Translations under genes and position numbers: made by a program
Origin: Methanoregula sp. PtaB.Bin085
GTDB taxonomy: Archaea > Halobacteriota > Methanomicrobia > Methanomicrobiales > Methanospirillaceae
Direction of reading: 5' to 3'
Assembly (NCBI RefSeq): GCF_002067035.1
Contig: NZ_MVQB01000013.1
Location: 62,001 to 126,000, forward strand
Length of the DNA stretch: 64,000 bases
The notes under the pieces: generated by a model
The model's database searches: none
What the model was told of the DNA's origin: nothing
What the model saw: only the letters and a program-made list of their open reading frames with translations
In this document: piece after piece, positions 84 to 3,243 of the stretch
How the letters are laid out: each line of letters begins with the position of its first letter
How positions within the stretch are numbered: position 1 is the stretch's first letter

Positions 84-554
84 TCAGAGTACTGTATCCC
101 GAGGTACTTCAACATGGACAATTCCCGTCAGGACAAATTTGCACGGAACGTTTGTTATATTAAACGTTCTTCCCCGTTCAGAAATACGATTATGGATCTC
201 ATAGACAACGGTCCGGTTAACTTTCTGTGAGTCGTCTATCATCACGATGATCGAACCCTGCATATCCTTCCTGAACCCGATTACCGGTCCTTTCGGGTAA
301 TAATACGGGCTGATATCCGTATCGGATGCATTGATGAACCGCTCCATCAGATCCGGGTCGTTGAGAAAAACCGTTCTATCCGGGTTTTCCCTTTCCAGTC
401 CGAATGAATCAATGATCCGTTCTCCCGGAATAGTCGCCGACAGATTTGGTTTCATATCCGGGCCTTCATCTTGTTCCATCCCTGTAGGAAGAATTAATAC
501 AAGACCAAAAACAATCCCGAGGATTAGAATTCCGGTCATTACGTATCGGTTCAT
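84..554 (-). CDS. Secreted or membrane-anchored protein matching the protease pro-region
   Basis: This 156-residue protein has an N-terminal hydrophobic segment (about residues 5-23) that could be a signal peptide or anchor. Residues 84-144 align with residues 91-151 of the protease encoded just upstream on the same strand. Shared points are the YYYPxGPxIG start, the DMxGSIxVMI strand, the xISExGR helix end and a single conserved cysteine (C138 here, C145 there). It has no His/Asp/Ser triad and stops where the protease domain would begin. The start has a GGTGA-type ribosome site six bases upstream. It lies 32 bases behind the protease gene, so the two are probably co-transcribed. A free pro-region could act as inhibitor or folding helper; this is inference. 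It could instead be a remnant of a duplicated protease gene. Confidence 0.72.
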   Translation of the reverse strand: MNRYVMTGILILGIVFGLVLILPTGMEQDEGPDMKPNLSATIPGERIIDSFGLERENPDRTVFLNDPDLMERFINASDTDISPYYYPKGPVIGFRKDMQGSIIVMIDDSQKVNRTVVYEIHNRISERGRTFNITNVPCKFVLTGIVHVEVPRDTVL

Positions 555-586
555 CTGTTTTCACCGTTCTGGAAAAAATGGGGATT

Positions 587-1675
587 TTATCCGGTCAATG
601 GCGTTATCCAGTTAAGATCACGCCGGATTCCCTGCACTGGTGAGAAAATGGCATATCCAGTCCCGTTTGATCGTCCTACGTGGATCCCAACCAGTACTGT
701 CTCCCCAGTGGAATATTTCTCATACACAGGTGCTCCGCTGTCACCCGTTGCAGAAGAGTAGGTGGCGTACCATTGATTCTGAATGTATTTTCCGTAATGG
801 TCATTCCAGACATTGGCCTGGTACACCGTGCTACCCGTTGTCAATCCCGATTCCACTCCAGACATATACAGGGTAAGTCCTGACGGATTGTCATCCCAGT
901 AATTGAATGTCTTGTATGCAGAAGCGGATTCATACACTTTGGGATTACTCGTAACCCCACTCGTCAATTGTGTCCATGAAGAATCAGAATAGGTATTACC
1001 CAGAGTGGTTTTATAGCCGATAAAGGCGCCGCTGACGGTCGGATCCGGCTGATACACTGATGATCCTATCGATCCCATATGGCCTGTTGCGACGATGCCA
1101 CGGTTTCCGGAAGAATCCGTTGCAACAAATCCAAGCGTGGAATAATACCCAGCCATGTGAACCTTGGTTCCCCCGATTACCGGTCGTATCTGTTCGGTCC
1201 GGGTGGCTTGCGTTTCCATGAGTCCCATGGAGATAAACCTGCAGGGAATATTTTCGATGCCCTTCTGTCGTCCCTGTTCGGAAATTTTTTCGTAAATCTC
1301 CTTTAACACTGACTGATTCACGACCCAATCTTTGTTAATCATCACAACGATTGATCCTTTCATGTCAATGCCTTTACCAATCATTGGACCATTCGGATAG
1401 TAGTATTTTTGCAGTTCTTTGTCTGATTCGCTGTTTACGGCTCTCAGACTTGAATACCAAGGATCGGAATCAATTTTCCGCAAATCAGTATATGGTAATT
1501 TTTCTGACGGTACCCGGCCGAATGCAGCGAGAATGATTTCTTTCTGATATGCAGTTTCCGCGTTTTTTATCGCAGATTCCTTTGATAAATCATCACTCGC
1601 ACTCACTATCGGTACAAATATTATCGCTGCCAGCATTAGTGCCAGCAGGATAACGATTATCTTGTGTGGTTTCAT
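587..1675 (-). CDS. Secreted chymotrypsin-fold (S1-like) serine protease with pro-region
   Basis: The 362-residue product starts with a signal peptide (residues 5-26, cut probably near VSA). A pro-region of about 140 residues follows, then a trypsin-like domain of the bacterial alpha-lytic/streptogrisin type. The likely triad is H199 in ATGHMG, D231 in YSDSSW and S313 in GDSGAP. The usual GDSGGP is GDSGAP here. Such enzymes are made as zymogens and act outside the cell. A homologue of the pro-region is encoded just downstream (84-554). On the other side the divergent gene encodes a small secreted beta protein. The substrate cannot be read from the sequence. Confidence 0.82.
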   Translation of the reverse strand: MKPHKIIVILLALMLAAIIFVPIVSASDDLSKESAIKNAETAYQKEIILAAFGRVPSEKLPYTDLRKIDSDPWYSSLRAVNSESDKELQKYYYPNGPMIGKGIDMKGSIVVMINKDWVVNQSVLKEIYEKISEQGRQKGIENIPCRFISMGLMETQATRTEQIRPVIGGTKVHMAGYYSTLGFVATDSSGNRGIVATGHMGSIGSSVYQPDPTVSGAFIGYKTTLGNTYSDSSWTQLTSGVTSNPKVYESASAYKTFNYWDDNPSGLTLYMSGVESGLTTGSTVYQANVWNDHYGKYIQNQWYATYSSATGDSGAPVYEKYSTGETVLVGIHVGRSNGTGYAIFSPVQGIRRDLNWITPLTG

Positions 1676-2397: not shown

Positions 2398-2445
2398 AAG
2401 TCTGGATCAAAAACCTCATATTATTTTGAATATTAATTGGTTTTA

Positions 2446-3243
2446 ATGAAAAGGAAGATCTGCAGCCTGGTCATCGTGCTTATTACCAGTCTTCTGGTCC
2501 TTTCTGTAGTACCTGCCGTGCACGGAGAAAGTTACACAGTCCGGCCTGCATATGGTCTCGTGCAGGAACCGCCGGAAGATACCAGCCAGGAAGTCTCCTT
2601 TTATGAACTGACACCCCGTGCCATGATCATCTTTGTCGCCCTATCATTCTCTCCAATCCTCGTGTATCCGGTCGAATTTTTCCTTATGATCAAAATATTC
2701 GTTTATCTCGGATACAGGAAAATCGATGAGATGGCGGTTTTGTATAACAGTAACCGCAGGCTTATTTTTGAAACTGTTGCACGAAATCCCGGCATCAATT
2801 TCAATACTCTGATGATATCGTACGGGATTAACCGGGGAGTACTGCAATATCATCTCCATATCCTTGAATTAAAAGGAAAGATCGTCAGGTTCCATACTGC
2901 AAAGTCCGAGGGGTATTTCGAGAACAGCGGGCGATGGGGCAACCTGGAAAAATGTATCTTTATCCATATGAGGAATTCAACTACCAAAAAAATCTTGGGG
3001 ATCCTCTCTGATTCCCGAGAGATCACCCGTAAGGAGATTGCAGAAATCCTCGGAGTTTCCGGGCCCTCAATAACTTGGCACACGAACCGTTTGTCGGAAG
3101 ACGGAATAATCACCATTACAAGGAACGGAAGAGACGCATCTTTCCGTTTGTCCCATGATGCAGCCCGGTCTATCCGGGGTCTGTCCCGGGCCCTCCAGAG
3201 CCCTGTTTTTTCAGGACAAGCACACGCCGACCAGGCTGTTTGA
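2446..3243 (+). CDS. Membrane-anchored tandem winged-helix transcription regulator
   Basis: The ATG at 2446 gives 265 residues; the TTG at 2437 is a weaker choice. A signal-like or first membrane helix (residues 4-26) is followed by about 30 exposed residues that include YTVRPA, then a second membrane helix (about 58-83). The rest is cytoplasmic and holds two winged-helix units. The first has NPGINFNTLMISYGINRGVLQYHLHIL, given here as residues about 115-141. The second has REITRKEIAEILGVSGPSITWHTNRL (about 190-215). This layout is common for archaeal one-component regulators that bind DNA from the membrane. It lies 48 bases after the secreted-protein gene and is probably in the same transcript. 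Confidence 0.8.
   Translation: MKRKICSLVIVLITSLLVLSVVPAVHGESYTVRPAYGLVQEPPEDTSQEVSFYELTPRAMIIFVALSFSPILVYPVEFFLMIKIFVYLGYRKIDEMAVLYNSNRRLIFETVARNPGINFNTLMISYGINRGVLQYHLHILELKGKIVRFHTAKSEGYFENSGRWGNLEKCIFIHMRNSTTKKILGILSDSREITRKEIAEILGVSGPSITWHTNRLSEDGIITITRNGRDASFRLSHDAARSIRGLSRALQSPVFSGQAHADQAV

Follow-up and report, generated by a model that had tools for sequence, protein, structure and literature searches.

Subtilases and papain-type proteases have known propeptide inhibitors that are encoded as stand-alone proteins, and the stand-alone subtilisin propeptides are the closest functional analogues of the free pro-domain protein described here. SUB1-ProM of Plasmodium is a potent stand-alone propeptide inhibitor, encoded next to subtilisin genes, that acts in trans, and other stand-alone propeptide-like inhibitors of subtilisins (MEROPS I9 and mimics) include Toxoplasma MIC5, Pleurotus proteinase A inhibitor 1 and yeast peptidase B inhibitor (PMC6993865). 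The archaeal protein resembles these inhibitors, and the stand-alone propeptide-like concept of MEROPS I9/I29, in being a separate gene product similar to a protease propeptide. They target subtilases (S8), for which inhibition was shown, whereas its partner protease has the S1 chymotrypsin fold and its inhibition would be the analogous activity. It is also unlike them in being archaeal, in matching no Pfam family and in being predicted to be anchored to the membrane or surface. In the open-access literature we found no report of a stand-alone propeptide inhibitor for the chymotrypsin fold, from archaea or in surface-tethered form, and no report of the pair of protease and free pro-domain gene.

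The pair lies at the start of the window, the whole 64,000-nucleotide stretch of Methanoregula DNA that was analysed. On the minus strand, the protease gene (1675 to 587; protein P0002, 362 residues) comes first and the gene of the free protein (554 to 84; P0001, 156 residues) follows 32 bp downstream; both open reading frames were confirmed at these coordinates. BLASTP aligned residues 72-152 of P0001 with residues 78-159 of P0002 (37/82 identical, 45%, E=1e-23). The aligned part, here called the PRO domain, lies ahead of the catalytic start VIGG, which bears out the initial annotation in placing the similarity in the pro-region. That annotation had counted about 60 shared residues with one conserved Cys. 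The alignment covers 82, and the Cys is indeed common to both proteins (NVPC/NIPC), but it does not define the PRO family, since most relatives outside the genus have Val or Ala there. The features of the locus are as follows.

587..1675, minus strand: secreted S1-family (alpha-lytic/streptogrisin-like) serine protease, 362 residues, with N-terminal PRO domain (open reading frame, catalytic profile, fold match)
1598..1675, minus strand: signal peptide predicted for the protease, residues 1-26, MKPHK..VPIVSA (read directly from its basic beginning, its hydrophobic core and the small residues around the probable cleavage site)
1199..1444, minus strand: PRO domain of the protease, residues 78-159 (BLASTP against the free protein; family profile matches)
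611..1180, minus strand: catalytic domain, residues 166-355, from VIGG (profile match)
1079..1081, minus strand: catalytic His199 codon, CAT (invariant in the protease alignment)
983..985, minus strand: catalytic Asp231 codon, GAT (invariant in the protease alignment)
737..739, minus strand: catalytic Ser313 codon, AGC, in the motif GDSGAP (invariant in the protease alignment)
84..554, minus strand: stand-alone PRO-domain protein, 156 residues, predicted to be N-terminally membrane-tethered (open reading frame; relatives at 45-52%; purifying selection)
483..548, minus strand: predicted transmembrane anchor of P0001, residues 3-24, with no evident cleavage motif (hydrophobic stretch; model helix 3-21)
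99..341, minus strand: PRO domain of P0001, residues 72-152 (BLASTP against the protease; gapless placement of the C-terminus)

Two divergent plus-strand genes were located upstream of the protease, one for a secreted beta-sandwich-like protein (1924-2397) and one for a winged-helix protein with an N-terminal secreted or transmembrane part (2437-3243). Relatives of one or both were observed near other PRO genes (L069, L070, L073, L092, L093, L102 and L105), and the winged-helix regulator has only three copies in the window genome.

P0002 is like alpha-lytic protease and the streptogrisins in catalytic sequence and fold, and in having an N-terminal pro-domain that ends directly before VIGG. Its triad is intact, His199, Asp231 and Ser313 being invariant among 12 aligned proteases, and the GDSG motif is present. 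The catalytic profile matched 2oua best among PDB entries (E 6.5e-10), followed by alpha-lytic protease 3m7u (9.7e-10), and also matched streptogrisins; a Foldseek search with a protease model of moderate confidence found 3ure (1.0e-8, TMt 0.65). It differs from these enzymes in its separate PRO gene, in a mature part free of Cys, where the conserved disulfide cysteines of the alpha-lytic/streptogrisin type are absent (TGHM in place of GHC), and in a PRO domain with no match to PF02983 (Pro_Al_protease). PF02983 gave no sequence match for P0001, P0002 or the 28 PRO domains, and it found nothing in the window genome, a weak search since the control genomes also gave none. PDB pro-region chains did not match the PRO domain. 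Against the PF02983 fold, a small alpha/beta lobe with a three-stranded sheet, the PRO domains were modelled as strand-strand-helix-strand at low confidence (mean pLDDT 61 and 59 for the structure models), and a fold search with the low-confidence P0001 model returned no significant PDB match. With neither a PF02983 match nor a confident fold match, the homology to the alpha-lytic/streptogrisin pro-region that had been assumed earlier was not established. Proteases of family f9 (L165, L170, L181 and L184) belong to the same catalytic family and have another, two-lobed pro-region, weakly like PF02983 in 2/4 members (E 0.2); a profile-profile comparison of PRO with the C-terminal lobe of this pro-region found nothing in common beyond the IRP end, and two of these proteases (L165 and L170) have no free PRO. 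A plasmid search gave only one distant Rhodococcus S1 peptidase.

P0001 consists of a hydrophobic N-terminal helix with no obvious cleavage motif, an acidic linker and the PRO domain, and its C-terminus (residue 156) falls, gapless, at the pro/mature boundary of the protease (RP-VIGG). Its closest relatives are free proteins of sister species (G020, G018 and G037; 45-52% identity). Two of these genomes, G018 and G020 (each a single contig of 97% completeness), contain these near relatives and no protease of this type. The lineage can thus persist without the protease, and P0001 is no copy of the adjacent pro-region. The P0001 lineage is under purifying selection (dN/dS 0.26-0.32), as are free PRO proteins generally (0.19-0.42), and together with the intact relatives this rules out a decaying remnant. 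These results revise the initial annotation, which had described a free copy of the protease's own pro-region: by its similarities P0001 belongs to an old lineage separate from that pro-region, and a membrane tether is predicted for it in place of free secretion. The concerns raised at that stage, that the gene might be decaying or that its homologues might never adjoin a protease, were not borne out; homologues were found beside proteases far more often than expected by chance.

The pairing was surveyed by searching for the catalytic family in 393 Halobacteriota genomes, whose protease neighbourhoods were fetched and read by script. All 26 evaluable intact PRO-proteases in Methanosarcinaceae were followed, 35-700 bp further on and in the same orientation, by a free PRO gene, a count that leaves out L175, where a contig edge lies on the downstream side. 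Only 4-15 PRO matches were found in each of ten complete genomes, so a PRO neighbour would be expected by chance in well below 1% of cases. The same gene order, with a spacing of 80 bp, recurs on L115, a named contig from Methanosarcinales, and the genomes of family f8 are taken to be Methanosarcinaceae from the copy pattern and this related contig. Broken proteases also kept the downstream PRO partner (L144, L161, L173 and L188). Frameshifted or truncated proteases were observed in several otherwise good genomes (L080, L082, L103, L144, L173 and L188), and the protease seems to be lost often and PRO genes less often.

In Methanomicrobiales, 5/15 proteases were paired with a free PRO (the window, G030, G078, G129 and G215); the protease of G215, whose 5' end is cut by a contig edge, overlaps the free PRO gene. 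This count omits proteases whose PRO has been lost or has diverged (L081, L183, L185 and L186). The other 10 had a membrane-anchored ArsR-like winged-helix protein directly upstream, possibly a membrane regulator of the protease, and no free PRO. The regulator and the free PRO never occurred together around an intact Methanomicrobiales protease, whereas L080, where the protease is broken, has both. If relatedness is ignored, a division this clean has an exact probability of 1/3003. The small membrane-anchored ArsR-like protein lies directly upstream of unpaired PRO-proteases at L068, L073, L075, L079, L091, L094, L096, L098, L138 and L139. The pairing of protease and free PRO is thus a conserved module in two orders of methanogens. 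One genome, G510, carries two proteases without a PRO domain, in which a signal-like start is followed almost at once by RPAIGG. A separate transmembrane-anchored PRO gene precedes them, at distances of 14 and 89 bp, the start of the second protease being uncertain. Since its proteases carry no PRO domain, this PRO could act only in trans, and the split is the most direct hint in the sequences that PRO acts on the protease in that way.

Among the adjacent free PRO domains, 39/40 had a free PRO as the best match in another locus, closer than the PRO of their own neighbour, which indicated pairs of long standing and not newly made tandem copies. The exception was L080, and the recombined copy of G030 (L074), 74% identical to its neighbour, passed narrowly. 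On a tree of 128 domains, the fused or free label needed 13 changes, compared with 31.5 in shuffles, and several clades contained a fused subclade with its free partners; the tree is based on 102 columns and many of its forks are unresolved. The similarity ranking and the tree rule out that the pro-region next door was duplicated in tandem recently. Distances between catalytic domains followed those between the downstream free PROs (Mantel r=0.87, 0/5000 shuffles), even when the swapping of partners was confined to paralogues within one genome (2/5000). As linked genes correlate by inheritance alone, this correlation speaks for long-lasting pairing and not for contact.

The two partners also differ in their predicted location. 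A PGF-like motif ([P/S]G[F/L/Y]) was found near the C-terminus in 53/64 free PROs of Methanosarcinaceae and in 0/27 proteases, followed in most cases by a hydrophobic stretch and a basic tail; one member matched PF18204, the Pfam family of PGF-CTERM (archaeosortase) surface proteins, below the cut-off (E 0.062). P0001 has no such motif and has the N-terminal transmembrane helix instead, which probably does the same job in many Methanomicrobiales members. The PRO family is therefore predicted to be exposed at the cell surface and the protease to be released. Where members have a PGF-like anchor, their PRO domain leads into a linker, which means that a product-like tail such as that of P0001 is not general.

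A role in trans as inhibitor, helper or immunity factor, as proposed in the initial annotation, remains the best reading of the free PRO. We give about an even chance to one form of it, in which the free PRO would be a surface-tethered cognate inhibitor of the mature protease that protects the producer; its binding, inhibition and surface protection are what we infer from the genes. The first gene would supply a secreted alpha-lytic/streptogrisin-like protease with its own N-terminal PRO domain, from which the enzyme would presumably be freed by a cut near VIGG. The second would supply another PRO domain fixed to the cell membrane and facing outward, by the N-terminal helix in the window genome and by the PGF-like C-terminal anchor in Methanosarcinaceae. 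In trans, the tethered PRO would then bind the mature enzyme in the manner of a pro-region and block it at the surface of the producer, so that proteolysis would take place away from the cell and its own S-layer and envelope would be spared. The 26/26 pairing, the same order in Methanomicrobiales, the age of the pairs and their co-diversification support this reading, as do the PGF-like anchors, the split in G510, the gapless end of P0001 at the pro/mature boundary and its dN/dS of 0.26-0.32.

The alpha-lytic pro-region catalyses the folding of its protease in trans, and by analogy the tethered PRO might catalyse folding at the outer face of the membrane, supplementing or replacing the protease's own pro-region. 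The G510 protease, which has no PRO of its own and comes immediately after a PRO gene, would suit such a helper, and the conserved gene order suggests co-transcription. Nearly all paired proteases, however, have a PRO of their own, which would make a second foldase redundant, and neither the surface anchoring nor the orphan PROs would be explained; we regard this role as rather unlikely.

The distribution of the PRO domain bears on a further alternative. No Pfam or NCBIfam family matched it, and PRO represents an old, apparently undescribed family of membrane- or surface-tethered pro-domain proteins. A profile built from 28 members found PRO in 68/232 Methanomicrobia genomes and, in several copies, in many Methanosarcinaceae. 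Most PRO copies were free-standing, and the catalytic domain occurred in only 24 of the 232 Methanomicrobia genomes. A degenerate-pattern search of the genome contigs gave only 7 loci, and these figures therefore rest on the other searches of the genome set. Four complete Methanosarcinaceae genomes had 4-9 PRO matches and zero protease matches, and G341 is a fifth such case. Since free PROs are common in protease-free genomes, inhibiting a co-encoded protease cannot be their only role; defence against the proteases of neighbours or another recognition role would fit. Some members have two PRO domains or HEAT repeats, and free proteins in which HEAT repeats occur together with PRO and a C-terminal anchor of PG[F/L] type were observed at L153 6181-7527 and L128 8013-9200.

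The free PROs without a protease weaken the inhibitor reading, as do the 10 Methanomicrobiales proteases without an adjacent free PRO and the low confidence of the models. The wide occurrence of PRO could instead suggest a general extracellular recognition module, the anchored form holding the protease at the surface or reporting proteases or peptides. Its spread without proteases, its doubled and HEAT-fused forms and the division of intact Methanomicrobiales proteases into 10 with the regulator and no free PRO and 5 with the reverse are in line with such a tether or sensor, which by itself gives no reason for a domain of pro-region type or for co-diversification with the catalytic domain. We consider it doubtful, to a similar degree as a folding helper.

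Recombination was seen at individual loci. The free PRO of G030 (L074 6464-7033) has its own 5' part and a 3' part that is nearly identical to the upstream protease and includes a truncated mature start, and the locus of G033 (L072 5219-5779) looks collapsed by recombination between the protease and free PRO genes; the gene after the free copy in both, considered as a transposase, reads as a secreted beta-propeller-like protein. That the free gene is a truncated protease left over from tandem duplication, without function, holds for some loci: in G030 and G033 the recombined-looking copy continues into a shortened mature portion (RPVVGG..DFRGRNSANIFMRREA), and frameshifts affect several proteases (L080, L082 and L103). 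For the window pair this account is very improbable and strongly disfavoured, as P0001 clusters with free proteins from other species, carries an anchor of its own without any trace of a mature part, belongs to a lineage under purifying selection and represents an arrangement kept in 26/26 Methanosarcinaceae cases.

The surface inhibitor reading could be extended to polymorphic protease-immunity modules, in which the secreted proteases would be directed at the surface proteins of other archaea nearby and the tethered PROs would be the cognate immunity factors; we think this has a small chance of being correct. As in toxin-immunity pairs, a secreted, potentially self-harming enzyme is followed by a cell-bound cognate partner, the two co-diversify, and partner genes also occur alone. 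The difference is that here the enzyme itself contains a domain homologous to its partner, and that the pair is known from genes and not from killing or delivery. If true, protease-free genomes with PRO would carry orphan immunity against the proteases of others.

The age, conservation and co-diversification of the pairing suggest that a matching inhibitor is displayed on the surface, by which the cell would control or survive its own protease. The module is deeply conserved, also in large multi-copy Methanosarcinaceae genomes, and some members of that family have genetics. It therefore becomes directly testable how archaea that have only an S-layer withstand the protease they secrete.
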